From the NCBI RefSeq assembly GCF_009733815.1, contig NZ_WNXY01000011.1:1-64000 (forward strand): a stretch of 64,000 nucleotides of DNA, written 5' to 3'. Origin of the DNA: Pseudactinotalea suaedae (lineage in GTDB: Bacteria; Actinomycetota; Actinomycetes; Actinomycetales; Beutenbergiaceae). The notes under the pieces are model-generated. The model worked only from the letters and a program-made list of their open reading frames with translations. It did no database searches and was not told the origin of the DNA. The translations under genes and the position numbers were made by a program. This document shows positions 32,061 through 48,687 of the stretch, one piece after another. The stretch's first letter is position 1; each line of letters begins with the position of its first letter.

Positions 32061-35000
32061 TCAGCGGACCCTGACGGTGATCGGTGCCGACTCCGTGGTC
32101 CCCGCCGCGTTGATCCACTCGACGCGGTAGACGTAGCTGCCCGGCGCCAGCGCCTGCGCGCCGTAGGTGACCCGCTGGTGCGCGGGCGTCGCCGCCACGA
32201 GGTCGCCCTCGGCCACGAGCACGTCGTCCTGGTAGAGCCGGTAGCGGTCGGCGTTGGTGCCCCACCACAGGTCGGCGGTCACCGTGAACGAGCCGTCGCC
32301 GTCCCGGTTGTCATGGCTGAGCACGGGCGTGCCGGGGGAGGCGTGCGTGACCCTCACGGTGAGCGGCGCCGTCGTCGTCCGACCCGCACCGTTGACGAGC
32401 TCGGCCGTGTAGACGTAGCTGCCGTTGGTGCGTCCAGCCACCGGGAACGTGACGCGCTGGGCGCCCGGGGTGGCGGGCTGCACGCGCTCGGACGCGATGA
32501 GCCGGCCGTCCTCGTACAGGTGCACGCGGCTGGCGTTGCTGCCCCACCACAGGTTCATGGTGATGGTGTAGTCACCGTCCTGCAGCCCGGTGTCCCAGCC
32601 GTTGTCGCTGCTCAGCACGCCGACGGCGGGGGGTTGCGTGGCGCCGTCGTCGGCCGGTGCGAAGCCGTTCCCGACCGAGCCGAGGTCGGTGACGTCGATG
32701 ACGCGGTCGTCGAGGATGAGGACGCCGTCGACGACCTCAGCCGTCAGCGGCCCGGCCGCCGTCGCGAGCACGATCCCGAACTCGGCCGAGGTGCCGGTGC
32801 GGGTGAGCCGGAGGGTGTGGTCGATGACCTGCACCTGCAGGCCGTCCCGGTCGGGGACGAACCCGGAGAGCGTCGCACCGTCGCTGCTCGTGAACGTGAA
32901 CAGCGGCTCGTGGGCGGCGCTGTCGGGGAAGGTCGCGACGGCCACGGAGTCCTCGGGTCGCAGCTGCCAGTCCCAGTCGTGGGACTCGACGTCGGCGAAG
33001 GTGTCGTGGATCGCGACGATCGCGTCTGCGGCGCCGCCCTGGGCGAGGTCGACGACCTGTTCGCGCTCCGCCGTCGAGACCTCGAAGTTCGCCGACCCGT
33101 CGAGGTGGACGTACCCGCCGCCCTGGCCGTCGAACGAGCGGGACGCCAGGGTGATGCCCTCGCCCCGCACCGTCTCGTACTGGTTGGCGTACGGCTCCAG
33201 CTCACCGTCGACGAGCGGCTTGCTCCACAGCAGCGGGTCCTGGACCTTGCCGCCCTGCAGGGTCCACGAGGTGTCGTGGCTCATCCACGACAGCGCGAAC
33301 GTCTCCGCCGCCGACCACCCCTTGTGCTGGAGGTTGCGGTTCGAGGTGGAGATCAGCGTGTCGTCGACGCCGGCGTACTCCGAGCGGAACGCGTAGAAGC
33401 CTGCCTCGTCGTCGAGCAGCGCCGTGTGCGCGGCCGGCGCACCGAGGTCCGCCGGGTCGTCGCTCACGCCCTCCGGGTAGTAGAGGACCGCGAACATGCT
33501 GTGCACGTCGTCGAAGGCCACGCTGGTGGAGTCGACGCCCTGCAGCTCGTCGTACAGGTGCACCAGCCCGGGCAGCGCGTCCGCCGATGCGGTCGGGAAC
33601 AGCAGCGGGAAGGTGCCGCTGACCTGGTTGCTCGGGCCGGACACCCCGAACTGGAGCACGTCGCCCGCGGCCCGGGAGGAGACGACGTGCAGCGCGAGGT
33701 TCCAGAAGTCGACCGCGGCGAGCGGGGCGTCCAGCGCGAGCACGCCGGCGTCGCGGGTCATGAACAGCGCGGGGAACAGGTACAGCTGGGCGTAGTGGAA
33801 GTAGTCCCAGCCCTCCTGCGTCCAGCCGGTCTCGGTGTAGCCGTCCTGCAGGTGCCGTGCCACCTGGTTGATCAGGTAGGTGATCCGCTCGTCATGGGTG
33901 CCGAAGTCACCGTCGCCGCGGGCGGCGAGCAGCAGCGCGAGCTCGGTGCCGTGGGTGACGGCGACCCAGTTGGACGCGCGGTCGGCGCCGTCGAGGGTGT
34001 CGTGGTGGTAGGTCGAGAGCAGGTCGGTGGTCTTCGTCATCAGGTCGCGGACGTCGGCACGCTGGGCCTCGGTCCAGCCCTGGTGGGCGAGGTCGTAGGC
34101 CGGGGCCAGGTTGAGGGCGCCGCGCCCGAGCTCCAGACCCATGTTGGTCTCGCGCGCCACGATCCAGTCCGCCCCGGCCATGACGGCGTCGTAGGCCTGC
34201 TGGGCGTAGTCGGGATCGCCGGTGACCGCGTAGGCGAAGGCGGCGTCGCGGGCGCGGTAGAGCTCGGTCGCCGAGCCGGGGTAGGGGGCACCGGTGCCGT
34301 CGAGGCGGGCGAGGAGCGCGTCCCAGGCGCCGCTGACGGTCGGGGCGCCGGCGGCCAGGTCGGCCTGGATCCGCGCCACGACGTCGGCATCGACCAGCGT
34401 GCGCGGGTGCTGCTCGGCACCGACCGCCGCGCGGGCCAGCTCGGTGCCGCCCGAGCGCAGGACGACGTCGGAACCGGGAGCGGCGGCGAACGTCTCGAGG
34501 TTGCCCGCGTACCCGGTCACCGGCACGGGCGCGGCGTCGCCCACCTGGACCGACAGGGCGACGGTCGGGTCGCCGTCGGCCACGGCCCAGCTCACGTGCG
34601 TGGCATCACCCTGCTGCAGCGCCGTGACCAGGCTGAGGACAGTGCGGTCGGCGAACGTGCTCGCGGTGGTGGTCGTGGCCGCCGGGCTGGTCTCGAGCAC
34701 CGAGCCGTCGGCGGCGAGCGCCTGCACGAGGTAGGTGTACGTGGTCGCGGGGGCGGCGGTGGCGTCCGCGGTCGTGGGGGCGAGCGCGTGCTTGAGCACG
34801 TGGTCGGGGGTCGCGGCCGGGGGCGTGGAGCCCTCGGCGCGGTAGAGGGCGTACCGGTCGGCGACGTCGTCCTCGAAGGTCCAGGCGAGCTCGACCGGCC
34901 CGCGCGCGCTCGGTGACGCCGTGAGCGTGCCGCCGCCGACGGTCTCGGTGATGCTGAGGTCGGCGAACCACACGGTCCCGCCCGCGCGGTCGAGCATCGG

Positions 35001-35531
35001 CTCGATCGAGATGCGGGCCGCGTCCGGCGGCAGCACCAGGTCGGTCGAGTAGGTGCGCCAGTCGAAGGTGCCGGTCACGTAGGGACCGGAGCGCACCGGC
35101 AGCACGACCTGCCCGGCCGCGTTCCAGGCCTGGATGCGGAGCATGCTGAAACCGCCCGTGAGCCCGTCGCCGCGCACCCAGCCGGTGAGCGTGAGCTCGC
35201 GTGCGACCGAGGCATCGATGTCGATGCGCTGGGTGAGCGCGAGCCTGGCGGTCGCGCCCGAGGTCGAGGTGATCGCGACGGCAGGCCCACCGGTCGGTCC
35301 GGCGGTCTGGTCGACCGTCACGCGGGCGGTGCCCGCGGGAGCCCAGGTGCCCCAGCCGGTGGGCATGCCGTTCGCGCCGACCGCACCGAAGCTCGGGTTG
35401 GTGATGACCGGCACCGCGGCCGCCAGCGCGGGCGTCGCGACGCCGGCGGTCGCGGCCGTCCCGATCAGCGCCGCGGCGAGCAGGCTCCCCAGGACGGAGC
35501 GCACACGGGTGCGCACGAACCATGACCTCAT
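32061..35531 (-). CDS. Secreted multidomain heparinase II/III-like polysaccharide lyase
   Basis: 1156 residues. AAGGAGG lies six bases before ATG 35531. A Sec signal peptide ends near residue 38 (TPALAAAVP). A carbohydrate-binding-like beta sandwich follows (about 40-185), then a fibronectin-type segment (about 190-280) and a spacer. An alpha/alpha-toroid lyase N-domain spans about 375-670 (YDLAHQGWTEAQRADVRDL, ASNWVAVTHGTELALL), and the heparinase II/III-like beta sheet about 690-1000 (FYAFRSEYAG, SWMSHDTSW, HDTFADVESHDWDW). Two C-terminal repeats of about 85 residues share the pattern LS.DN..D.G.YT...LWWG.NA..., like modules in secreted chitinases. It should cleave uronic-acid-containing polysaccharides outside the cell; the exact substrate is unknown. 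Confidence 0.88.
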   Translation of the reverse strand: MRSWFVRTRVRSVLGSLLAAALIGTAATAGVATPALAAAVPVITNPSFGAVGANGMPTGWGTWAPAGTARVTVDQTAGPTGGPAVAITSTSGATARLALTQRIDIDASVARELTLTGWVRGDGLTGGFSMLRIQAWNAAGQVVLPVRSGPYVTGTFDWRTYSTDLVLPPDAARISIEPMLDRAGGTVWFADLSITETVGGGTLTASPSARGPVELAWTFEDDVADRYALYRAEGSTPPAATPDHVLKHALAPTTADATAAPATTYTYLVQALAADGSVLETSPAATTTTASTFADRTVLSLVTALQQGDATHVSWAVADGDPTVALSVQVGDAAPVPVTGYAGNLETFAAAPGSDVVLRSGGTELARAAVGAEQHPRTLVDADVVARIQADLAAGAPTVSGAWDALLARLDGTGAPYPGSATELYRARDAAFAYAVTGDPDYAQQAYDAVMAGADWIVARETNMGLELGRGALNLAPAYDLAHQGWTEAQRADVRDLMTKTTDLLSTYHHDTLDGADRASNWVAVTHGTELALLLAARGDGDFGTHDERITYLINQVARHLQDGYTETGWTQEGWDYFHYAQLYLFPALFMTRDAGVLALDAPLAAVDFWNLALHVVSSRAAGDVLQFGVSGPSNQVSGTFPLLFPTASADALPGLVHLYDELQGVDSTSVAFDDVHSMFAVLYYPEGVSDDPADLGAPAAHTALLDDEAGFYAFRSEYAGVDDTLISTSNRNLQHKGWSAAETFALSWMSHDTSWTLQGGKVQDPLLWSKPLVDGELEPYANQYETVRGEGITLASRSFDGQGGGYVHLDGSANFEVSTAEREQVVDLAQGGAADAIVAIHDTFADVESHDWDWQLRPEDSVAVATFPDSAAHEPLFTFTSSDGATLSGFVPDRDGLQVQVIDHTLRLTRTGTSAEFGIVLATAAGPLTAEVVDGVLILDDRVIDVTDLGSVGNGFAPADDGATQPPAVGVLSSDNGWDTGLQDGDYTITMNLWWGSNASRVHLYEDGRLIASERVQPATPGAQRVTFPVAGRTNGSYVYTAELVNGAGRTTTAPLTVRVTHASPGTPVLSHDNRDGDGSFTVTADLWWGTNADRYRLYQDDVLVAEGDLVAATPAHQRVTYGAQALAPGSYVYRVEWINAAGTTESAPITVRVR

Positions 35532-35630
35532 CACGGACCTCCTTGGCGGCGACGGGCTGCTGCGCCGACTGTGACAGCCGAGCTGCCGGGTTGCACGCAT
35601 CTGAACAGAACTGAACAGGCGCGCGGGGTC

Positions 35631-37234: not shown

Positions 37235-39553
37235 GTGCCGTCCGAGCGCAAGCCGACCGGCCCCACCCGTCGGAGCGTGACGTCGACCGGGTCGGCGTCG
37301 CGACCGAAGGCTCCCGGTTCGCGCACGACCGCGTCGAAGCCGGCCGCACGCACGAGCACCGCCGCGCGCAGCGGCGGCGCCGGCAAGAACGGCAAGAACG
37401 GCAAGAAGAAGTTCTGGAACTACCCCCGCCGCGGCAAGGGTCCGATCCGTCGCTGGCTGCCGAGCTGGCGGTTCCTGCTGGTCTCGGCGCTGGGTGTGTT
37501 CGTGCTCGGCGCGGGCGTCTTCTTCTACTTCTACGCCACGACGGACGTCCCGGAGGCGCAGGACATCGCGCTCGCCGAGTCCAGCACCGTCTACTTCGCC
37601 GACGGCGAGAGCGAGATGGGCAGGTTCGCCGAGGTCGACCGGGACATCATCGACCCCGCCACGCTGCCCGACCACGTCGGCCAGGCGGTGGTCGCCTCCG
37701 AGGACCGCCGGTTCTACTCCAACTCCGGGATCGACCCGATCGGTCTGGTGCGGGCGCTGTGGAACAACCTGCGCGGGAACCCGACGCAGGGCGGCTCCAC
37801 CCTGACGCAGCAGTACGTCGAGCGCTACTACACCGGCCAGACCTCCGGCTACGGGGACAAGGTCCGCGAGGTCATCCTGGCGCTCAAGATCGACCGGGAG
37901 CAGAGCAAGGACGAGATCCTCGGCAACTACCTCAACACGATCTACTTCGGGCGCGGCTCCTACGGCGTCGAGGCGGCCTCGCAGGCCTACTTCGGCAAGC
38001 CCGCCACCGAGCTGACGGTCAGCGAGTCGGCGCTGCTGGCGGGGATCATCCCCTCGCCCTCGCGCTGGGACCCGGCCGTGGACCCGGAGCAGGCCGAGGC
38101 GCGCTGGAACCGCACGCTCGACTTCATGGTCGACGGCGGGTTCCTCACCCAGGCGGACCGGGACGCGCTCGTCTACCCGGAGACGATCGCCAACGAGCAG
38201 ACCGACTCCCTCGGTGGCCCGACCGGATACCTCCTCGACATGGTCCGCACCGAGCTGATCACCCGGGGCGAGCTCAGCGAGGCGGACATCGACGGCGGTG
38301 GCCTCGAGATCGTCACCACGATCGACGCCCGCCTGCAGGAGCTGGCGGTCACCGCGGCGGAGGGCCTGCCCGACGACGCGCCGGAGAACCTCAAGGTCGC
38401 GCTGGTGTCGATGGACCCGACGACGGGCGCCATCGTCTCGCTGTACGGCGGTCCCGACTTCGTGAGCGAGTCCCGGAACCGGGTCACGCAGGACGTGGCC
38501 CAGGGCGGTTCGACGTTCAAGCCCTTCACGCTGATCGCGGCGCTCGAGAGCGGGGTGCCGCTCGAGGAGCGCTACGCCAGCTACTCGCCGATGGAGCTCG
38601 AGTGCTACGGCGACCAGGCGGTGCGCAACTTCGACCGCGTCAACCGCGGCAACATCGACCTCGTCGAGGCCACCGAGAACTCGGTCAACACCGTGTACGT
38701 GCAGCTCAACTGCGACGTCGGACCCGAGAACACGCTGGACGTCGCCACGCGTCTCGGTCTCCCGGAGGACACGGCGGGTCTGGAGCCGGTGCCCTCGAAC
38801 GTGCTGGGCTCGGCCTCGCCGCACCCGCTCGACATGGTCACGGCGTACTCGACGATCGCCGCCGGCGGCGAACGCCACCAGAGCTTCATCGTGGCGCAGG
38901 CGACCGACCCGGCCGGCACGGTCGTGTACGCCGGTGCCCAGCCGGGCGAGCAGGTCGTCGACGAGCAGGTCATCGCCGACGCGACGTACGCGATGACCCA
39001 GGTCGTCGAGCAGGGCACCGGCGAGACCGCGAGCGAGATCGGCCGCCCCGCGGCCGGCAAGACCGGGTCCTCGCAGGACTACCGGTCGGCGTGGTTCGTC
39101 GGGTTCGTCCCGCAGCTGACGACGGCGGTCGCGCTCTACCAGCCGGCCGAGGACGGCACCGAGGAGGTGCTCACCCCGTTCGGTGGCGTCGACCCGATCG
39201 CCGGCGGCACCTGGCCGACGACGATCTGGACGAGCTACATGACCGAGGCGGTCGCGGACCTGCCGGTCGTGGACTTCCCCCAGCGCAGCGCGCCGTCGAC
39301 CCCCAGCCGCGAGCCGACCCAGCAGCCGACGACGGAGGAGCCCACCACCGAGGAGCCGACGACGGAGGAGCCGACCACGGAGGAGCCGACGACGACCCCG
39401 CCGCCGGAGCCGACGGAGGAGCCGACGACGACCCCGCCGCCGGAGCCGACCGAAGAGCCGACGACGACCCCACCGCCGGAGGAGCCGACGACGACGCCGG
39501 CCGAGCCAACCAGCGAACCCACCGACGAAGGCGACGCCGACGGCGGTGGGTGA
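37235..39553 (+). CDS. Class A penicillin-binding protein (glycosyltransferase/transpeptidase)
   Basis: 772 residues. After a basic, lysine/glycine-rich cytoplasmic tail and one membrane anchor (about 84-104), the GT51 glycosyltransferase shows VASEDRRFYSNSGIDP and QGGSTLTQQYVER. The transpeptidase follows with the SxxK serine at 426 (GGSTFKPF), SVN near 483 and KTGSS at 609, all intact. It polymerises and cross-links peptidoglycan at the outer membrane face. The last 70 residues are a threonine/proline/glutamate repeat (PTTEEPTTEE, TPPPEPTEEP), perhaps spanning the wall. GTG start at 37235. No adjacent WhiB gene, which often accompanies ponA in actinobacteria. Confidence 0.94.
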   Translation: MPSERKPTGPTRRSVTSTGSASRPKAPGSRTTASKPAARTSTAARSGGAGKNGKNGKKKFWNYPRRGKGPIRRWLPSWRFLLVSALGVFVLGAGVFFYFYATTDVPEAQDIALAESSTVYFADGESEMGRFAEVDRDIIDPATLPDHVGQAVVASEDRRFYSNSGIDPIGLVRALWNNLRGNPTQGGSTLTQQYVERYYTGQTSGYGDKVREVILALKIDREQSKDEILGNYLNTIYFGRGSYGVEAASQAYFGKPATELTVSESALLAGIIPSPSRWDPAVDPEQAEARWNRTLDFMVDGGFLTQADRDALVYPETIANEQTDSLGGPTGYLLDMVRTELITRGELSEADIDGGGLEIVTTIDARLQELAVTAAEGLPDDAPENLKVALVSMDPTTGAIVSLYGGPDFVSESRNRVTQDVAQGGSTFKPFTLIAALESGVPLEERYASYSPMELECYGDQAVRNFDRVNRGNIDLVEATENSVNTVYVQLNCDVGPENTLDVATRLGLPEDTAGLEPVPSNVLGSASPHPLDMVTAYSTIAAGGERHQSFIVAQATDPAGTVVYAGAQPGEQVVDEQVIADATYAMTQVVEQGTGETASEIGRPAAGKTGSSQDYRSAWFVGFVPQLTTAVALYQPAEDGTEEVLTPFGGVDPIAGGTWPTTIWTSYMTEAVADLPVVDFPQRSAPSTPSREPTQQPTTEEPTTEEPTTEEPTTEEPTTTPPPEPTEEPTTTPPPEPTEEPTTTPPPEEPTTTPAEPTSEPTDEGDADGGG

Positions 39554-39586: not shown

Positions 39587-40315
39587 CTACGCCTCGCCGG
39601 ACTCCTCGCCGCGCGCGTTCTGGATGTGCTCGGTCAGCCACGTCGCGGTCCGCAGCACGTGCGCCGACATGGCCGCGGCCGCCGTACCGGGGTCGCGCGC
39701 GTCGAGAGCGGCGACCACGGCACGGTGGGCCCGGTCGGTCGTGCCCTTGGCGACCTCGGGCGGGAGCACGAAGTAGAGGTTGAACCGCCCGCCCAGGCGG
39801 TGGAAGGTCCGGGCCACGCCGGCCAGCGTGCGGTTGCCGCCGATGGTGCTGACGAGATGGTGGAACTCGGTGTCGATCTGGCCCATGCGTTCGGGGTCGG
39901 ACTCGGCGGTGAAGGCATCGAGCAAGCGGTGCAGCTCGAGCGAGTCCTCGGCCGTCATGCGCGCCGCAGCCATCGCTGCGCTGTGCGACTCCAGCACGCG
40001 GCGGATCTCTGAGAGCTCTCCGATCCGGTCCACGGGCGTGACCTGGAGCGCGATGGCGAACTGCGCGAACATCCGCCCCGGCTCGAGATCGGTGATGTAG
40101 CTGCCGCCGCCGTGCCGGGTGTCCAGGATGCCCATCGTCGCGAGCGAACGGATCGCCTCACGCACCGTGCCCCTGCCGACCGCCAGAGCCTGCGCGACCT
40201 CGGCCTCGCCCGGGGCCCTGTCCCCCGGCTGCAGCTCACCGGCAGCGATCTGGTCGATCAGCCACGTCATGACGACCTGGGTCGCACTGCCACGGCTGCG
40301 GGTGGGGTCATCCAT
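39587..40315 (-). CDS. GntR-family (FadR subfamily) transcriptional regulator
   Basis: 242 residues. The N-terminal winged helix covers about residues 10-80 (LIDQIAAGELQPGDRAPGEAEVAQALAVGRGTVREAIRSL split). The C-terminal helical FCD domain has the metal/ligand histidines in EIRRVLESHSAAMA, DTEFHHLVSTIGGN and AHRAVVAALDARD, as in regulators of sugar-acid catabolism. It is divergent from the carbohydrate operon starting at 40592. Two FadR-type sites bracket that operon's promoter, so this protein is its likely repressor, probably released by an acid sugar. Confidence 0.93.
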   Translation of the reverse strand: MDDPTRSRGSATQVVMTWLIDQIAAGELQPGDRAPGEAEVAQALAVGRGTVREAIRSLATMGILDTRHGGGSYITDLEPGRMFAQFAIALQVTPVDRIGELSEIRRVLESHSAAMAAARMTAEDSLELHRLLDAFTAESDPERMGQIDTEFHHLVSTIGGNRTLAGVARTFHRLGGRFNLYFVLPPEVAKGTTDRAHRAVVAALDARDPGTAAAAMSAHVLRTATWLTEHIQNARGEESGEA

Positions 40316-40460
40316 GATCGGTCCGCTTCCTCGTCATCGTCGTCGTGCCGCTCACGCTAGCGGCCGCCACCACCGTCGGATGGGTGGCTTGCACCGGGAG
40401 CTCCCGGCGCTCGCTCCCGCGGTCGTGCCCACGTGCGGTCGCCATCACGACATCCTAGAC

Positions 40461-40535
40461 TTGTAGGACGACTACTTGACACTCGCGCCTGAATCGCCAT
40501 AGTGTCCCGTCCGGCAGGACGTGGTTGTCCTACAT
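40461..40535 (+). promoter_or_regulatory. Carbohydrate-operon promoter bracketed by two GntR sites
   Basis: TTGACA at 40476-40481 and CATAGT at 40498-40503 are separated by 16 bases, giving a near-consensus promoter with a start around 40510. TTGTAGGACGA (40461-40471) lies just before the -35 and TTGTCCTACAT (40525-40535) just after the start. Both fit the FadR-subfamily consensus TnGTnnnACnA, and they are related to each other as inverted copies (TGTAGGAC/GTCCTACA). Confidence 0.8.
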
Positions 40536-40591
40536 CCTGTCTGATCTGCGTGTGCGCCCCCACCCCAGAACTTGAGCCGATGGAGCTTCTT

Positions 40592-42235
40592 GTGACCCGT
40601 AACGACGGACCTGTGCCGAACTCGCTGTCCCCCGTCTCCCGGCTGCTGCCGCGCCGCCGCTTCCTCGCGGTCGCCGGTGCGCTCGGCGCCGGCGTCCCGT
40701 TGGCCGCTGCTCTCACCGGGTGCTCCGACAGCAACGGCGGCTTCCAGCCGTCCGCGAGCCCCACGGCGCCGGCGGGAACCCTGAGCGGGGAGGTCGTGGT
40801 CGCCATCCAGCAGAACCCCGACGATGCCGCGAAGAAGGCGCTGACCGACGCCTACGCCCAGGTGCAGCCCGACGTCACGATCGTCTGGGAGACCAAGGAG
40901 CAGCCGCGCGCCGAGTACCTGACCTATCTGGGGACGCAGCTCGCGGCCAACGAGATCCGCCTCGACCTGGTGTCGGGCAACTACGTGCCGACCTTCGCGA
41001 ACTTCGTCAACTTCGACGCCCACCGCGGCGAGGAGAACCCCTACACCGGCAACCCGTGGGACACCGATCTCGACTTCGACTTCGCACGCTCGGTCAACGC
41101 CCAGGGCGAGCTGATCATGCTGGCCTCGCAGTCGGTCCACGTCGGTTGGTACTACAACAAGACGATCTTCGCCGAGGTGGGTGTCGAGCCGCCGACCACG
41201 TGGGAGGAGTTCATCGCCGTGTGCGCCGCGATCAAGGAGCACGACGTGACACCGATCTCGATCAACTTCGAGTTCCAGCTGCCGCAGTGGGTCATCGAGG
41301 TCTACTTCGACCAGTACCACGCCGACTGGGTCGAGACCGTCCGCGCCCAGGACGGCGACTGGAACTTCAACCCCGAGGTCGACGCCGACTTCAGCTTCGA
41401 CCCCGAGAACCCCAACCTGCACTCCACCTACACCTACAACCTGCAGCGGTTCTACCAGGCGCTGCGCGACGGCACGCTGCGCTACGACACCGACCGCATG
41501 GTCGAGATGATCACGAACCTCACCAAGGTCTTCCCGCAGTACGCCACCGACGACATGTTCGTGCTGGACGACGCCTACGCGCCGTTCCTGCAGCAGCGCA
41601 CGGCGATCATGTCCAGCGGCTCGTGGTCGATGGTCGAGATCGCCAACGACCTCAGCTCGATCACGCCGGAGCGGCTGGCGGAGCTGGGGCTCGAGCCCGG
41701 GTCGATCGAGAGCTTCGAGTGGGGCACCTTCGAGAACCCCGCGATGCAGAGCGGACTGGTGCAGACGTCGATCCCCCGCGCCGTGGAGTCGGCCGCGGGT
41801 GAGTACATCAGCGTCGTCGACAAGCAGAACGGTCAGACAGAGGCAGCGATCGACTTCGCGCGGTTCTGGTTGTCGAGCGCCGGCTACCAGCCCTACCTGG
41901 ACGCCACGGTGGCCGAGGGGAGCTGGGTCCCCCGAGGTCCTCTGGAGGTCGCGAACCTCGAGGAGCCCGAGGCCAACAGCGTCTTCGAGACCCTGGAGTC
42001 GCGAGGCAACGCCGAGATCAACTACAACGGCTTCTGGATGTTCGGTGGGCCGGCCTCGCAGGCCGCCGACAAGAAGCAGCTGTTCCACGACGTGCTGCAG
42101 GGCAAGACCACGCCGCAGGAATACGCCGCACAGCTGCAGCACTACATCACCGACCACATCGACGAGACGATCGCCGATGCCGGCCTGAGCACGGCCGACA
42201 TCGAGAACCCGGCACGTCGGCCCAGCGGTCTGTGA
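40592..42235 (+). CDS. ABC transporter carbohydrate-binding lipoprotein (family 1), Tat signal
   Basis: 547 residues from GTG 40592, which has GGAG six bases upstream; ATG 40580 is an alternative. The signal PRRRFLAVAGALGAGV followed by ALTGC combines a twin-arginine motif with a lipobox, so it is probably exported folded and lipid-anchored. The mature protein is a family 1 sugar-binding protein (DDAAKKALTDAYAQVQPDVTI, VGWYYNKTIFAEVGVEPPTTWEEF, AAIDFARFWLSS). It is unusually long for the family, with an aspartate/asparagine-rich insert around residues 235-290. It feeds the two permeases that follow; the stop overlaps the next start. Confidence 0.92.
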   Translation: MTRNDGPVPNSLSPVSRLLPRRRFLAVAGALGAGVPLAAALTGCSDSNGGFQPSASPTAPAGTLSGEVVVAIQQNPDDAAKKALTDAYAQVQPDVTIVWETKEQPRAEYLTYLGTQLAANEIRLDLVSGNYVPTFANFVNFDAHRGEENPYTGNPWDTDLDFDFARSVNAQGELIMLASQSVHVGWYYNKTIFAEVGVEPPTTWEEFIAVCAAIKEHDVTPISINFEFQLPQWVIEVYFDQYHADWVETVRAQDGDWNFNPEVDADFSFDPENPNLHSTYTYNLQRFYQALRDGTLRYDTDRMVEMITNLTKVFPQYATDDMFVLDDAYAPFLQQRTAIMSSGSWSMVEIANDLSSITPERLAELGLEPGSIESFEWGTFENPAMQSGLVQTSIPRAVESAAGEYISVVDKQNGQTEAAIDFARFWLSSAGYQPYLDATVAEGSWVPRGPLEVANLEEPEANSVFETLESRGNAEINYNGFWMFGGPASQAADKKQLFHDVLQGKTTPQEYAAQLQHYITDHIDETIADAGLSTADIENPARRPSGL

Positions 42236-44202
42236 GCGTGCTGCCCGCCCTCAGGCGGCGCAGGACGGCGTGGATCGCAGCACTGCTCGTGGCTCTCGCC
42301 GTGGCCGGCAACCTCGCCGTCCTCGCATGGGACCACGCCCGCGCACAAGCCGGGCAGGTCCGCACCTTTGCGGCGGAGATCGACGACATCGGCGCGGTCG
42401 CGGCCCTGGACGACACCGATGTGGCGGTCGCCGGCCTGGGGACGAGGGTGAGCCTCGTCCGTGAGGGCGCCGTCGTCGTCGAGGTCGATCTCGACGCACG
42501 GGTCAGCGCGATCGCCGCCGAGCCGGGCAGCATCGTCGTCGGCACGGCGACGGGCGAGGTGCTGTGGCTCGACCCACGGCTGCAGGTCACCGATCGTGCC
42601 GAGGTCGACGGCAGCGTCGTCGCGCTGGCGCAGGCCGCACAGACCACGGTCGCGGCGTCAGGATCGGGTGCCTACTCGCGGGACTACCAGATCTCGCGGT
42701 GGACCGACGGTCGTGACGCGGGTGCGGCCGGTGCGGCCTACACGGTCAGCGCGATCACCGTGCTGGGCGAGCACGCGGTCTACGGGACCACCAACGGAAG
42801 CGTGGGCGCCGTCGACGACGCGGGGTCCGAGGCCTGGCTCGTCGGACTCGGTGCGCCGGTCACCGCCGTCCTCGCCGTGCCGGACCGCGGCCTGGTCGCG
42901 GTCGGCGACCAGGACGGTCGCATCCACCTGATCGACAGCACGGGGCAGGCGCTCGGATCGGTTCGCGTCTCGGCGGGATCGGTCTCGGCGATGGTGTGGG
43001 ACCCCGAGCACGAGTACTACCTCGTGGGCGACTCGCGAGGTGCGCTGCACGTGCTCGACGTCGACGGACGGCTGATCAGCTCACGCACCCTGATGGCCGC
43101 GCCGATCCGGGGCGTGGTCGACACCACCGCCGGCACCATCCTGGCGGGAGAGGACGGCAGCTGGCTGTCCTTCGACGTCGACCAGGTCGCGGAGTCGGTC
43201 GCCCGCGACGCGGTCCGGCCGTGGTGGATCGCCGGCAACGTCGTGGCGGCGATGGCGCTGGCGCTGCTGCTGGGCCTGGGAACCGCGGTGCGCCGTCGGT
43301 CTGCCGGGCTGCTCGCCCGCCGGGTCTGGGGCGGGCGGGTCGGGTACGCCCTCGTGGGCGCGGCGGTCCTGGGCGTGCTGGTCTTCTGCTACTACCCGGT
43401 GGCCAGCGCGCTCTGGTACTCGCTGACCAACTTCAGCCTGCGAGAGCTGGAGCCGGAGTTCATCGGTCTCGACAACTACATCCAGATCCTGTTCCACGAC
43501 CGCTACTTCCGCATCGGGCTGTGGAACATGCTGATCATCACGGTGGCGAGCCTGGTCAAGACGATCGCCGTGCCGCTGCTGGCCGCCGAGCTCGTCTACT
43601 GGGTGAAGCGGTCCACCACGCAGTACGTGTTCCGCACCGTGTTCGTGATGTCCACCGTCGTGCCCGGCCTCGTGACCACGCTGCTGTGGAAGCGGGTGTA
43701 CGACCCCGACGTCGGAGCGCTCAACCAGCTGTTGCGGCTGGTCGGGCTCGACGACTGGACGCGCGCCTGGCTGGCCGACGAGGGCACCGCGCTGGGCGCG
43801 GTCATCGCTGTCGGCTTCCCCTACCTGGCGGCCTTCCCGTTCCTGATCCTGCTCGGTGGGTTGATCGCGATCAACCGTGATCTCTACGACTCCGCGGCCC
43901 TCGACGGCGCCGGACGCTGGCTGCAGTTCCGTCACATCGATCTCGCGCACCTGCGCCCGCAGTTCCGCATCCTCGCGTTCTTCGCCGTCACGGGCGCGGT
44001 CGAGGGCTTCGCCTCGACGTTCCTGCTCACGCGCGGCGGACCCGGTACGGCGACCTACGTCCCGGCCCTGCAGATGTACCTGCGGATCGCCGAGGGCGAC
44101 CTCGGCTACGCCTCGGCGATCGGGGCGATCCTGGTGATCGGTCTCCTCGCCATCTCCGTGGTGATCCTGCGGTTCCGCCGCAACGAGCTGGAGGCATCGT
44201 GA
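42232..44202 (+). CDS. ABC sugar permease with N-terminal extracytoplasmic beta-propeller
   Basis: 656 residues. Helix 1 (about 12-32) is followed by about 265 residues made of seven similar units of about 35-40 residues, each starting VxAI/VxAV and ending in a G-x-L/I-x-x-hydrophobic-D turn (VSAIAAEPGSIVVG, VSAITVLGEHAVYG, VTAVLAVPDRGLVAVG, VSAMVWDPEHEYYLVG, IRGVVDTTAGTILAG among them). This predicts a seven-bladed WD40/PQQ-like propeller outside the cell. Helix 2 (about 323-345) returns inside, and a normal MalF-type permease follows, with the EAA loop at about 553-575 (DSAALDGAGRWLQFRHI). GTG overlaps the preceding stop (GTGA). Ordinary permeases of this type are about 300 residues. Confidence 0.9.
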   Translation: MSVLPALRRRRTAWIAALLVALAVAGNLAVLAWDHARAQAGQVRTFAAEIDDIGAVAALDDTDVAVAGLGTRVSLVREGAVVVEVDLDARVSAIAAEPGSIVVGTATGEVLWLDPRLQVTDRAEVDGSVVALAQAAQTTVAASGSGAYSRDYQISRWTDGRDAGAAGAAYTVSAITVLGEHAVYGTTNGSVGAVDDAGSEAWLVGLGAPVTAVLAVPDRGLVAVGDQDGRIHLIDSTGQALGSVRVSAGSVSAMVWDPEHEYYLVGDSRGALHVLDVDGRLISSRTLMAAPIRGVVDTTAGTILAGEDGSWLSFDVDQVAESVARDAVRPWWIAGNVVAAMALALLLGLGTAVRRRSAGLLARRVWGGRVGYALVGAAVLGVLVFCYYPVASALWYSLTNFSLRELEPEFIGLDNYIQILFHDRYFRIGLWNMLIITVASLVKTIAVPLLAAELVYWVKRSTTQYVFRTVFVMSTVVPGLVTTLLWKRVYDPDVGALNQLLRLVGLDDWTRAWLADEGTALGAVIAVGFPYLAAFPFLILLGGLIAINRDLYDSAALDGAGRWLQFRHIDLAHLRPQFRILAFFAVTGAVEGFASTFLLTRGGPGTATYVPALQMYLRIAEGDLGYASAIGAILVIGLLAISVVILRFRRNELEAS

Positions 44203-45065
44203 GGACCACGAACCGCTCCACCGGGCGGCCTCGACCGCCGGTCAGGGTGGCGACCATCGTCCAGTACGCGGCCCTGGTCGCCCTGGCCGTGGCGTCCTTC
44301 GCCCTGATCGCGCTCATGGTGGTGCTGTCGCTGCGGCCGGGTCTGGCGATCTACGTCGACTTCTGGAGGCTGCCGATCCCGCCCTACCTCGGGAACTTCA
44401 CCACGGCGCTGGGCAGCCTGCTGCCGGCGATGGGCCGGACGCTGCTGATCAGCGCCGTCTCGATCGCGTTGCTGCTGATCATCTCGACGGTGGCCAGCTA
44501 CTCCTTCGCCCGCCTGCAGTTCCCGGGCCGGGACGTGATCTTCTACGGGATCCTCGCCGTGATGACGGTGCCCGCCGTGATCACGCTCAGCCCGAACTTC
44601 ATCCTCGCCGACCAGCTGAACCTGCTGGGCTCGCTCTGGGGCCTGATCGTGTTCTACGTGGCCGGGGGGCTGCCGTTCGCGATCTTCCTCATCACCACGT
44701 TCTTCCGCACGCAGCCGGTGGAGATCTTCGAGGCGGCCCGGGTGGACGGCGCCTCCGAGCTGCGGATCATGCTGCGTCTCGCGGTGCCGCTGGCGATGCC
44801 GATCCTCGTGACCGTCGCGATCCTGAACTTCCTCACCTTCTACGGCGACTACATCTGGCCCAGCCTCGTCCTCACCGAGGCCAACCAGACCCTGCTGCTG
44901 GCGCTGCAGCAGTTCAACCCGTCCGTCGGCCAGTTCGGCAACCGGCCCGACTACGGCGTGCAGACCGCCGGCTACGTGGTCGCCACGATCCCGCAGCTGC
45001 TCGTCTTCGCGTTCGGCATGAAGTACTTCGTCGCCGGCGTCACGTCGGGCGCGATCAAGGCATGA
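44199..45065 (+). CDS. ABC sugar permease, MalG type
   Basis: 288 residues with six membrane helices and the EAA motif EIFEAARVDGASELRIMLRL in the last cytoplasmic loop. Start overlaps the preceding stop (GTGA). With the propeller-bearing permease it forms the channel. No ATPase gene follows, so the complex probably uses a shared MsiK/UgpC-type ATPase encoded elsewhere, as is common in actinobacteria. Confidence 0.94.
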   Translation: MRTTNRSTGRPRPPVRVATIVQYAALVALAVASFALIALMVVLSLRPGLAIYVDFWRLPIPPYLGNFTTALGSLLPAMGRTLLISAVSIALLLIISTVASYSFARLQFPGRDVIFYGILAVMTVPAVITLSPNFILADQLNLLGSLWGLIVFYVAGGLPFAIFLITTFFRTQPVEIFEAARVDGASELRIMLRLAVPLAMPILVTVAILNFLTFYGDYIWPSLVLTEANQTLLLALQQFNPSVGQFGNRPDYGVQTAGYVVATIPQLLVFAFGMKYFVAGVTSGAIKA

Positions 45066-45093
45066 CCCCGACCGCTCATCTCTGGAGGAGACC

Positions 45094-47136
45094 GTGACAA
45101 CCCTGACCGTCCACGTCGCGCCGGGAGGGCGCGCCGATGGTGCCGGCACGGCCGAGGACCCGGTCGCCACCCCTGTGCAGGCTCGCGACCTGCTCCGCCG
45201 GAGCCGTCGCGGTGACGAGCACGCCACGGTCCTCGTGGCGCCCGGCACGTACGCGCTGACGGAACCGCTGCTCCTGGAAGCCGTGGACTCGCACACCTCG
45301 TGGGTGGCGACGTCGCCCGGGAGCGCGGTGCTCGACGGCGGTCGGCGGCTGACGGGCTGGTCGCCGGTGGGCCCGGATGGTGACGTGTGGGTCGCCGACC
45401 TGCCCGAGGGCGACCCGCGGTCGCTGTACGTCGATGGCCGCTGCCGCCCTCGGGCGGCATGGCCGCGTGAGGGCGAGGTCACCATGACGCACGCCGAGTC
45501 CGTCCTGGCCCACCCCGACCTGATCGAGCTGTTCGCCGGCGGAAGCACGTTCGGGTACGACCGCGATCAGATCGGCGCGCTCACCAGGCCCGAGATCGTC
45601 GAGGTCCTCGTCCCGCACTACTGGGTGCAGGAGCGGATGCCGGTGGCGAGCCAGGACGTCGACGCCGCGACGCTGACGTGCTCGCGGCGCAGCCTGCTCG
45701 CGCTGCGCGACGACGTCGGGTCCGACCACGCGCGGTTCCGGCTCGAGAACGTGATGGACGCGCTGGGTGAGGTGCCCGGTGAGTGGGTGCTCGACCACGT
45801 GCACCGGCAGGTGCTGTACGCGCCGGCAGCCGGTGAGCACGCCGAGGACCTCGACGTGGTCGTCCCGGTGACGGTGCGCCTGGTGGAGGTACGCGGCACC
45901 GCTGCCGCACCCGTGACGGACGTGCACTGGTCCGGGTTCGAGCTCGCCCACGCCGCCGCGACGCAGGTCGACGGCGTGTGGAAGCTGCCCCAGCAGGACA
46001 TGCTCGACGGCGTCGAGTTCGCGACCTCGCCCCAGGCCGAGGTCGGGGTGAGCGGCGCTATCGAGCTGAGCTACGCCGTCGACGTCTCGATGTCCGACTG
46101 CACGGTCCGACGCGTCGACGGGCACGCCGTGTGCGCGCGCGAGGGTGTCCAGGGTCTGCATCTGGAGCACTGCCTCCTGACCGAGCTCGGCGCGGGCGGC
46201 GTGCACCTGGACGGCGCAGCGGCGTCGGCCGCTGCTGCCTCGGACCCCTCGGCGACCAGCGGGAACCGCATCAGCGACTGCGAGATCGGCCCAGGTGGCC
46301 GCGTCTATCCGGGCGCCGTGGGCGTCCTGATCCGGGACAGCCACGACAACGCGGTGGTCCACAACCACATCCACGACATGACCTACTCCGGCGTGTCGGT
46401 GGGATGGGTGTGGGGGTACGAGCCGAGCGCCGCGTACGGCAACCTCATCGAGGCGAACCGGATCCACCACCTCGGCGGGCCGCTGCTGTCGGACATGGGC
46501 GGGATCTATCTGCTCGGCGTCGCCCCGGGCACGGTCGTGCGGCGCAATCTCGTCCACGACGTGGCCTGCGCCAACTACGGCGGCTGGGGCATCTACCTCG
46601 ACGAGGGCAGCTCCCACGTGGTGGTCAGCGAGAACGTCGTGCACAGCACAGCCACGCAGGCGTTCCACCAGCACTACGGCCGCGAAAACATCGTGCGCGG
46701 CAACGTGCTCGCCTTCGGGGAGCGCGGGCAGGTCAAGCTGACGCGCCCCGAGCCGCACGTGTCGGCCTCGTTCCACGGGAACCTCGTGGTGGGCGACAAG
46801 CCGGGCTTCGTCAGCCGCGACGAGGGCTGGATCGAGGAGCTGAGCGTGCTGAGCGACCTCAACCAGATCTGGGGCACCGGTGCGCAGACCGTGGTCGCCG
46901 CCTTCGGGCGTCCCGACCGGGTCGAGCCCGACGCCCCGTTCACGGATGCGACCGAACGGTGGCGCGCGCAGGGCAGGGACCGCCACTCCACCATCGTCGA
47001 TCCCGGGCTCGTGGTGCACGAGGACGGCACCGTCAGCGCCACGGGTGACCTCGCGGACGGTATCCACGTGCCCGACCTGACCGACGTCGGGCCGCGTCGG
47101 CACAACGCGACAACCGCCCAGGAGGGCCAGCAATGA
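45094..47136 (+). CDS. Right-handed parallel beta-helix protein, cytoplasmic
   Basis: 680 residues from GTG 45094 with GGAGGAG just upstream. The N-terminus matches the pectate-lyase-like superfamily entry (VHVAPGGRADGAGTAEDPVATP), and from about 320 to 560 many short coils recur with N-x-I/V-x-x-N/H-x-I/V patterns (NRISDCEIG, NAVVHNHIHDM, NLIEANRIHHLGG, NLVHDVACANYGG, NVVHSTATQAFHQHYG). No signal peptide is present, so it should act on imported saccharides. The fold is shared by polysaccharide lyases, hydrolases and epimerases; which applies is unknown. Its stop overlaps the enolase-type gene. Confidence 0.88.
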   Translation: MTTLTVHVAPGGRADGAGTAEDPVATPVQARDLLRRSRRGDEHATVLVAPGTYALTEPLLLEAVDSHTSWVATSPGSAVLDGGRRLTGWSPVGPDGDVWVADLPEGDPRSLYVDGRCRPRAAWPREGEVTMTHAESVLAHPDLIELFAGGSTFGYDRDQIGALTRPEIVEVLVPHYWVQERMPVASQDVDAATLTCSRRSLLALRDDVGSDHARFRLENVMDALGEVPGEWVLDHVHRQVLYAPAAGEHAEDLDVVVPVTVRLVEVRGTAAAPVTDVHWSGFELAHAAATQVDGVWKLPQQDMLDGVEFATSPQAEVGVSGAIELSYAVDVSMSDCTVRRVDGHAVCAREGVQGLHLEHCLLTELGAGGVHLDGAAASAAAASDPSATSGNRISDCEIGPGGRVYPGAVGVLIRDSHDNAVVHNHIHDMTYSGVSVGWVWGYEPSAAYGNLIEANRIHHLGGPLLSDMGGIYLLGVAPGTVVRRNLVHDVACANYGGWGIYLDEGSSHVVVSENVVHSTATQAFHQHYGRENIVRGNVLAFGERGQVKLTRPEPHVSASFHGNLVVGDKPGFVSRDEGWIEELSVLSDLNQIWGTGAQTVVAAFGRPDRVEPDAPFTDATERWRAQGRDRHSTIVDPGLVVHEDGTVSATGDLADGIHVPDLTDVGPRRHNATTAQEGQQ

Positions 47137-48176
47137 AGATCGTTCGCGTCGACGTCGAGATGGTCGAACTGCCCGCCGTCACGCCCGCCTTCCGGTGGCG
47201 TGACGGGCTGCCCGGTTCCGAGCCCGCGCGCACCGGGGCCTGGCTGCGGCTGACGACCGACGACGGCGTCGTCGGGCGGGCGTGGTGCGTGCGCGGCGTG
47301 ATCCTCGCCGACCTCGTCAATCGCCGGCTGCGGCAGGAGCTGCTGGGGGCCGACCCGTTCGCGCGGGAGACTCTCTGGCACCGCATCTGGGAGATGGATC
47401 GGATCGAAGAGCTCCCCGTCTACGTGCCCGGCGTGGTCGACGTCGCCCTGTGGGACCTGGTCAGCACCGCGCTCGGCATACCGGCCCATGCGCTCGCCGG
47501 GACGGCCCGGACCGGGATCGAGGCCTACGCGTCGACCGTCACCTTCGACACGGTCGAGGAGTTCTGCGACGTCGCCACCCAGTGCCTGGAGCTGGGGTAC
47601 AAGGCGATCAAGCTGCACGCCTGGGGCGACGCGCGCCGCGACGCCGCCCTCGTGACCGCCTTGCGGGAGCACGTCGGTGATGACGTGCCGCTGATGTACG
47701 ACGGCTCCGCCGGGTTCGACCTCGCCGACGCGTTGCACGTGGGCCGCGCCTGCGCCGACGCCGACTACCTCTGGTACGAGGAACCGATGCGTGAGGCGAG
47801 CATCACCTCCTACGAGTGGCTCGCGGAGCGGTGTGACGTGCCGCTGCTGGTGGCCGAGACCAGCGACGGCGCGCACTGGAACACCGCCGACTGGATCCGT
47901 TCGGGCTGCGCCACCTACGTACGAACCAGTGCGATGTTCAAGGGCGGCTTCACCGGTGCGTTGCGTGTGGCGCACCTGGCCGAGTCCTTCGGGCTGCGGG
48001 CCGAGGTGCACGGGTCCGGCCCCGAGAGCGTCCACCTCGCGATGGCGGTGCCGAACACCACGTACTACGAGTCGCTCGTCACCTCGAACCCCGTGGTGCG
48101 CGAACCGCTGGTCGGGGCCGACGGCGTGGTGCGCCCCGCCGACGTGCCCGGGATCGGTTGGGACGCCTACCTCTGA
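47133..48176 (+). CDS. Enolase-superfamily enzyme (mandelate racemase/muconate lactonizing type)
   Basis: 347 residues. The capping domain is N-terminal, followed by the barrel. The catalytic KxxK-type strand is GYKAIKLHAWG near 155-165, metal ligands are the D in LMYDGSAGF (about 190) and E in LWYEEPM (about 214), and the third is in LVAETSDG (about 243). A histidine late in the barrel (EVHGSGPES) could be the general acid/base, as in the mandelate racemase subgroup. Such enzymes dehydrate or epimerise sugar acids. Together with the FadR-type regulator, a uronate or aldonate substrate is likely, but that is inference. Last gene of the operon. Confidence 0.9.
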   Translation: MKIVRVDVEMVELPAVTPAFRWRDGLPGSEPARTGAWLRLTTDDGVVGRAWCVRGVILADLVNRRLRQELLGADPFARETLWHRIWEMDRIEELPVYVPGVVDVALWDLVSTALGIPAHALAGTARTGIEAYASTVTFDTVEEFCDVATQCLELGYKAIKLHAWGDARRDAALVTALREHVGDDVPLMYDGSAGFDLADALHVGRACADADYLWYEEPMREASITSYEWLAERCDVPLLVAETSDGAHWNTADWIRSGCATYVRTSAMFKGGFTGALRVAHLAESFGLRAEVHGSGPESVHLAMAVPNTTYYESLVTSNPVVREPLVGADGVVRPADVPGIGWDAYL

Positions 48177-48360: not shown

Positions 48361-48687
48361 ATGCGTCAGTACGAGCTGATGATCATCCTCGACCCCGAGG
48401 TGGACGAGCGCACCGTCGCACCCTCCCTGGACAAGTTCCTCTCCGTCATCACCACCGGTGGTGGCACCGTCGACAAGGTCGACATCTGGGGCAAGCGCCG
48501 CCTGGCTTTCGAGATCGCCAAGCGCACCGAAGGCATCTACGCAGTCGTCGACCTGACGGCCACGCCCGAGCTCGCCAAGGAGCTCGACCGCCAGCTGGGG
48601 CTGAACGAGTCGGTGCTGCGCACCAAGCTCATCCGCCCCGACGCTCACCGCCAGCCCAAGCGCCGCGCAGCCGCCAAGGCCAGCTGA
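48361..48687 (+). CDS. rpsF: 30S ribosomal protein S6
   Basis: 108 residues, starting [17 protein letters not shown], the standard S6 N-terminus. The ferredoxin-like fold blocks [20 protein letters not shown] and EGIYAVVDL are clear. ATG 48361 follows GGAGG; an in-frame GTG at 48349 is too close to that site to be used. It binds S18 in the small-subunit platform. First gene of rpsF-ssb-rpsR-rplI. Confidence 0.98.

Follow-up and report, generated by a model that had tools for sequence, protein, structure and literature searches.

An ABC importer permease of Pseudactinotalea suaedae with a propeller-like, predicted extracytoplasmic insert

A 64,000-nucleotide stretch of Pseudactinotalea suaedae DNA (contig NZ_WNXY01000011.1 of assembly GCF_009733815.1, positions 1 to 64,000; hereafter the window) carries a gene (42232-44202, + strand) for a 656-amino-acid (aa) MalF-type permease of an ATP-binding cassette (ABC) importer, in which a propeller-like insert, predicted to lie outside the cell, precedes the six-helix permease core. 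Judged from the sequence, this combination of permease and propeller is real and unusual, and so far it is a single case.

Integrity and layout of the permease gene

The gene is a single unbroken open reading frame (ORF) of 656 codons, encoding a permease with an added N-terminal module. Its GTG start codon lies in a 4-base overlap with the end of the binding-protein gene, and at its other end it shares 4 bases, stop codon included, with the next permease gene, which likewise starts with GTG. The G+C content by codon position is coding-like across the entire ORF (0.83-0.98 at third positions, GC3, and 0.30-0.62 at second positions, GC2), with GC2 of 0.47-0.62 in the propeller versus 0.30-0.50 in the core. 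A first-pass annotation of the window had named two genes joined by error, or an alternative start near residue 345, as the way in which this gene could be misread. Both were looked for, and the outcome speaks against error: no stop and no frameshift occurs inside the 42232-44202 frame, and a clear ribosome-binding site is missing from the 20 bases before each of the in-frame start codons at residues 338, 341, 353 and 375. An erroneous fusion of two genes is unlikely because the frame is continuous, 4-base overlaps are found on both sides, the coding pattern persists and the alternative starts lack a clear ribosome-binding site. The source genome is 99.99% complete and 0.13% contaminated.

The coordinates, the 656-residue length and the order of helix, repeats, helix and core given by the first-pass annotation are borne out at the sequence level. 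The protein is composed of: (i) an added helix (residues 13-31; 42268-42324, + strand; hydropathy 2.31), whose N-terminus is predicted inside; (ii) a propeller-like region (residues ~42-330; 42355-43221, + strand), distinguished by Pfam and PDB matches and by shuffle tests; (iii) a second added helix (residues 333-351; 43228-43284, + strand; hydropathy 1.97), followed by AVRRR, predicted inside; and (iv) the MalF-type core (residues 373-656; 43348-44199, + strand), with hydropathy helices at 373-391, 433-451, 466-484, 523-541, 580-598 and 628-646, of which 466-484 meets only the looser of two hydropathy thresholds. Two overlapping stretches within residues 198-224 of the propeller are barely over that looser threshold (1.41 and 1.42) and are taken as blade strands, not helices.

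The core scores above the curated cut-off of the Pfam family BPD_transp_1 (36.7 versus 26.4 bits), has the PDB relatives 7cad_A (E 4.2e-16) and SugA 8ja7_A (E 3.4e-15), and is aligned by blastp with Escherichia coli MalF (E 2e-19). Hydropathy and an alignment with MalF and five relatives agree on the six helices. In the EAA region the core reads DSAALDGAG where the aligned MalF reads EASAMDGAG, so that the glycine is retained and the first residue is D instead of E. The accessible part of one source describes this motif, EAA-X3-G, as the contact point for the ATPase (PMC3150292).

The propeller-like region

Residues 76-287 match Pfam PF13570 (Beta-prop_ACSF4) with an E value of 3.5e-11 (5e-12 for the fragment alone). 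Because the score of 43.5 bits (46.3 for the fragment) is under the family's curated cut-off of 133, this result points to similarity to the family, not membership. The Pfam and PDB matches of the insert are generic WD40/PQQ-type propellers, with designed 'Cake' propellers among those in PDB (E 2.6e-14 at best).

The insert is also internally repetitive. Its best off-diagonal self-alignment scores 99, compared with 45.5 ± 9.7 for shuffled sequences (equalled in 0/100 shuffles), and the dominant repeat spacing is 41 residues (z 3.78). When each blade was given a leave-one-out score and compared with 1000 shuffles of itself, four blades of ~41 residues beat their own shuffles: 88-125 (0/1000), 169-207 (4/1000), 207-247 (0/1000) and 248-288 (0/1000). 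In a control, 1 of 11 windows of the binding protein reached z 3.0 in the blade test. A repeat profile trained on the four clear blades is not independent of them, and the other three blades were unscored by it. The seven regular repeats of the first-pass annotation were thus recovered in part: repeats are present and four blades are significant, while the count of seven is unconfirmed, blades 1, 3 and 7 being weak alone. The insert can be described as propeller-like, with tandem ~40-residue repeats and family similarity; seven blades are plausible, and the exact fold and blade number are what we infer.

Distribution of the two-part architecture

The genome samples searched overlap and together comprise ~1,100 genomes, all of Actinomycetota, with the P. 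suaedae genome included in each count; other phyla were not sampled in the same way, and sequence searches miss propellers diverged beyond recognition. The N-terminal 359 residues matched 1/396 genomes of the order sample at E <= 1e-5, namely their own, and 10/394 genomes of the class sample at E <= 1e-3, nine of these matches being weak and partial. The nine (9/393 other class genomes, E 1e-4 to 1e-3) were rejected as generic or chance matches, with a permease core in none of the nine loci within the stretch examined; longer flanks of six of them still contained no core (one locus, L113, ends at the contig end). The most tempting of the nine, locus L067, shares a WW-helix, but there this helix is the tail that anchors an unrelated protein in the membrane, as read from the translation. 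The same 359 residues gave no match at E <= 1 in 72,556 plasmids. No second copy of the propeller was found in its own genome at E <= 5, and among ORFs of at least 150 residues in 58 loci the propeller recovered only itself, in the three loci that represent the window (L001, L021 and L056).

With the whole protein as query, matches at E <= 1e-3 were present in 94 of 99 relatives, and in the phylum sample 99 of 396 genomes matched at E <= 1e-25; among the matches listed, all but its own begin at residue 316 or later. Among plasmids, 2,366 records matched, none covering 80% of the query. A pattern scan of contigs from bacterial and archaeal genomes, which reaches close relatives only, gave one core-only relative. 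The propeller had no match in a scan of viral contigs, and a PHROGs search returned permease-core matches only. Long frames (448 to 801 codons) upstream in nine core relatives were considered as hidden modules and rejected, with Pfam giving only the permease core in 9/9; they look like read-through in G+C-rich DNA. The first-pass annotation had proposed searching other genomes for the same two-part architecture, and no second case emerged from the ~1,100 actinobacterial genomes, the 72,556 plasmids and the two narrow contig scans. No account of an ABC importer permease that contains a propeller was found in the literature, where open-licence papers only were covered and absence is weak evidence; in their accessible parts, neither PMC13068155 nor PMC12997753 concerns a propeller in a permease.

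The binding protein encoded next to the permease was recovered in 2/296 phylum genomes at E <= 1e-10, in 36/364 class genomes at E <= 1e-8 and in one plasmid record; among the class matches listed elsewhere, nearly all are confined to its N-terminal half, one reaching residue 322. It too is an orphan, with partial relatives only. The operon therefore holds two orphans, the propeller and the binding protein.

Topology and comparison with known transporters

Four K/R residues stand ahead of the first added helix (13-31), and another four come after the second (333-351). From this charge bias around both added helices, the propeller-like insert is predicted to lie outside the cell, and the extracytoplasmic placement put forward in the first-pass annotation is thereby supported by sequence.

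In E. coli MalF, an extra pair of hydropathy helices (18-36 and 40-58, with few residues between them) precedes the first core helix (73-91). Daus is said to have reported in 2009 a contact of the P2 domain of MalF with MalE. According to the accessible part of PMC3150292, P2 comprises residues 91-271 and a segment of it is in direct contact with MalE. In the 656-aa permease the P2 position is short (~40 residues between core helices 1 and 2), and the added helices 13-31 and 333-351 occupy the positions of MalF's extra N-terminal pair, to which they may be homologous. Judged by position, the propeller occupies an existing MalF loop, P1. The two proteins thus share the permease superfamily, an extra N-terminal helix pair and one loop enlarged into an extracytoplasmic domain. 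In MalF the enlarged loop is P2, which follows core helix 1, whereas here it is P1, and the domain is propeller-like. The first-pass annotation had contrasted the insert with the P2 loop, correctly as regards the different position, although MalF also has the extra N-terminal helix pair, so a P1 loop exists there as well.

Ordinary CUT1 permeases, such as SugA (8ja7_A, 307 aa) and the permease of Deinococcus sp. QL22 (WP_249396377.1, 307 aa), have a related core, but the five aligned relatives are 295-331 aa long and lack the N-terminal module. The core shares 39% and 38% identity with two Deinococcus permeases, whose operons have the binding protein and the two permeases in the same order; they encode binding proteins of 475 and 481 aa (annotated span), permeases of 307 and 295 aa, and no propeller.

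Permeases with fused substrate-binding domains exist, as in the GlnPQ and OpuA type. There, too, an extracytoplasmic module is tethered to the permease chain, but that module is the binding protein, whereas here it is propeller-like and a separate binding-protein gene adjoins; in a Pfam scan the insert matched only propeller-type families and no binding-protein family. Another actinobacterial propeller acting with a membrane system is LpqB, a propeller-domain protein which, in the accessible part of the source, works with the MtrAB two-component system (PMC13068155). As presented there, LpqB differs in being a separate protein with a two-component partner and no transporter part. A third type may be represented by long PstC-type permeases of some gammaproteobacteria, which would have a large periplasmic insert near the N-terminus, possibly propeller-like, in a transporter that, unlike the present one, handles phosphate. 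If such permeases exist, they lower the novelty of the permease and propeller combination. Four gammaproteobacterial PstC loci, found with an E. coli PstC query among the best 60 of 134 matching plasmid records, have ordinary frames of ~306-372 aa, and the long form was not met there.

The cassette and its insertion site

The permease gene is part of a cassette of ~8.6 kb (39587-48176), encoding a GntR regulator, a binding protein, two permeases, a GH141-like enzyme and an enolase-superfamily enzyme. It is flanked on the left by ponA (PBP1-type; 37235-39553) and on the right by rpsF (~48361-48687), followed by ssb and rplI, all named from their translations. The gene rpsF was located in nine genomes, including that of P. 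suaedae, and the loci of six of the eight others were compared. In all six, ponA and rpsF lie at most 1 kb apart without the cassette; in a genome of the same genus (G001) the match to the two flanks of the cassette is 84% and 92%. We therefore regard the cassette as an insertion; loss in all six relatives is less likely. The compared end regions of the cassette have no long direct repeat, the longest common word being 10 bases.

A gene farther to the left (32061-35600, - strand) was considered as part of the cassette and rejected, since it adjoins ponA in the cassette-less G001 at 85.6% identity and so is a backbone gene. It encodes a secreted-looking protein of 1179 aa with two ChitinaseA_N-type stretches, which we take to be heparinase/alginate-lyase-like. 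No lyase model in Pfam or NCBIfam matched it, and PDB gave one weak match, to a hyaluronate lyase (E 0.012).

The GntR/FCD regulator gene (39587-40315, - strand; Pfam FCD 9.8e-20 and GntR 9.9e-15), divergent from the operon, has the NanR subfamily as its best NCBIfam match (1.8e-27, under the cut-off) and its product is a probable local repressor. The intergenic region between it and the binding-protein gene contains an inverted repeat, TGTAGGAC (40462-40469) and GTCCTACA (40527-40534), a candidate operator pair. The extracellular solute-binding protein (551 aa; 40580-42235, + strand; Pfam SBP_bac_8 4e-12) has an RRR stretch and a lipobox-like LTGC (Cys48) at its N-terminus and for this reason was judged by inspection to be a lipoprotein of the twin-arginine translocation (Tat) type. 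Downstream of the propeller-bearing permease lies the gene for a MalG-type second permease (44199-45065, + strand; BPD_transp_1 9.4e-16; MalG model 9.4e-25, under the cut-off), so that both the partner binding protein and the second permease are present in the operon. No ATPase gene was seen in the cassette, and the rest of the genome was not searched for a shared one. Actinobacterial importers can use a shared ATPase, and here it is presumably encoded elsewhere.

The enzyme genes and related loci

Two enzyme genes complete the cassette. The first (45094-47136, + strand) encodes a GH141-like parallel beta-helix protein whose PDB relative is BT_1002 (5mqp, E 6.7e-32), and the second (47133-48176, + strand) an enolase-superfamily enzyme of the mandelate racemase/dehydratase type (MR_MLE_C 7.8e-43; PDB 1rvk, 3.1e-51). 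Asp467 and Asp503 of the GH141-like protein align with two aspartates of BT1002 that are 41 apart in the solved chain; the accessible part of PMC10154630 names D523 and D564, with the same spacing of 41, as critical, the numbering offset between the two being inferred. BT1002, the founder of GH141, is presented there as acting on rhamnogalacturonan II in Bacteroides, and the family is said to include a rhamnogalacturonan II fucosidase and a xylanase (PMC10154630); endo-fucanases are added in the accessible part of PMC12786026. The cassette enzyme resembles BT1002 in both aligned aspartates, but, unlike that of BT1002, its substrate is not fixed by the family, because GH141 spans these several activities. 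No signal peptide was seen by eye, so the enzyme is probably intracellular.

A GH141-like match at E <= 1e-10 was present in 9 of 23 other genomes of the family. The seven closest loci (E 1e-138 to 1e-144) have an enolase-type gene inside the 16 kb examined, in some cases weakly similar (E 4e-5 to 1e-9), but neither the permease core nor the MalG-type subunit has a relative in that span. Two weaker GH141-like genes (L100, G019:C1:150000-164000, and L101, G013:C1:95000-109000) have a MalG-type relative, 29% identical, ~2 kb off, and L101 also has a weak core relative (22% identity, E 2.6e-5); neither locus has a propeller. The pairing of a GH141-like gene with an ABC importer is thus not confined to the window. 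Related permease cores were also found near enolase-type genes in G005 (L061) and G001 (L059).

At a further locus (L060, G021:C2:2138000-2153000) relatives of the core and of the MalG-type subunit stand among sulfatase-like ORFs, as judged by N-terminal residues, which suggests that this branch takes up sulfated glycans. In G001 (L093) a GH141-like gene adjoins a 2-hydroxyacid dehydrogenase gene, recognized by Pfam, and in G019 (L094) one adjoins dehydrogenase- and aldolase-like ORFs, identified by inspection, together with an enolase-type gene; these loci perhaps point to a distinct pathway for sugar acids inside the cells of this family.

Proposed function and alternatives

We propose that the protein serves a CUT1 carbohydrate ABC importer as its MalF-type subunit, and that a small-blade beta-propeller on the outer face of the membrane has taken the place of the short P1 loop between the two extra N-terminal helices. 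The propeller would act as a tethered docking scaffold: it would bind the unusual lipoprotein binding protein encoded in the same operon and place that protein beside the MalF/MalG pore, the job done by P2 for MalE in E. coli. The imported oligosaccharide would be cut inside the cell by the GH141-like enzyme, and a sugar acid set free in this way would be a substrate of the enolase-superfamily enzyme. The system would be under GntR control, with an ATPase that is presumably shared. To this reading as a whole we assign a probability of roughly 0.45. The docking role and the substrate are putative, and holding the binding protein would be the likeliest role of the propeller, because of the analogy with MalF-P2, the predicted outside location and the use of propellers, including LpqB, as protein-contact platforms. 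The pairing of two orphans in one operon would fit co-adaptation. A stronger version, in which the P1 propeller has assumed the role of P2 as a relocated docking platform that tethers a dedicated lipoprotein to the pore, a CUT1 tethered-receptor design on a catabolic island, is more speculative, and we consider it rather doubtful.

Several points weigh against the docking proposal. In blastp, the added helices gave no significant alignment with MalF's extra helices, and the match is one of position. Three of the seven proposed blades, positioned by spacing and by eye, are not clear alone: blade 1 was equalled in 89/1000 shuffles, blade 3 in 882/1000 and blade 7 in 31/1000, blade 3 (126-168) scoring lower than its shuffles do on average. 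The two orphans, lying together in an inserted cassette, may simply come from one unsampled source. A long binding protein needs no propeller, as the two Deinococcus operons have long ones without it, and the contact between propeller and binding protein is itself drawn from analogy.

Substrate capture had been another suggestion of the first-pass annotation. In this case the propeller would be a glycan-capture or wall-anchoring module, concentrating oligosaccharides near the pore independently of the binding protein. Propellers can bind glycans, and with GH141-like and sugar-acid-type enzymes in the operon its substrates are probably complex glycans; the generic WD40/PQQ-type matches, however, include no lectin or carbohydrate-binding family among those listed, and we consider such a role unlikely. 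For wall-polysaccharide sensing, also suggested there, nothing was found in its favour.

There is a similarly small chance that the propeller is a passive passenger, i.e., that a single-anchor propeller gene was fused in frame to a permease gene, with the second helix restoring the topology, and that the importer works independently of it. The propeller is a singleton in the searched set, it lies in a cassette absent from relatives, and its GC2 exceeds that of the core, although this may merely reflect soluble versus membrane sequence. On the other hand, the frame, the codon pattern and both helices are intact, and a useless 300-residue insert is not expected to remain open for long. Still less probable is a role in signalling, with the propeller informing a membrane sensor or regulator of the transporter's occupancy: LpqB with its MtrAB partner offers a precedent, but the cassette has no sensor kinase and its regulator is of the soluble GntR/FCD type. 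Finally, a chimeric assembly or sequencing error that fused two genes would account for the absence of a second example in the sequence searches, but it is hardly credible for an unbroken frame with overlaps on both sides, a helix flanking the propeller at each end and a coding pattern throughout, in a genome of such completeness and low contamination.

Implications

The holding and release of binding proteins at importers are best known from MalFGK2. If the docking proposal is true, the P. suaedae permease, whose docking-type domain differs from P2 and lies in another loop, offers a natural domain swap that would show which scaffold features matter, and its propeller is a single block that could be removed or relocated. 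In addition, the cassette is a complete uptake-plus-enzyme unit placed at a conserved ribosomal-protein locus.

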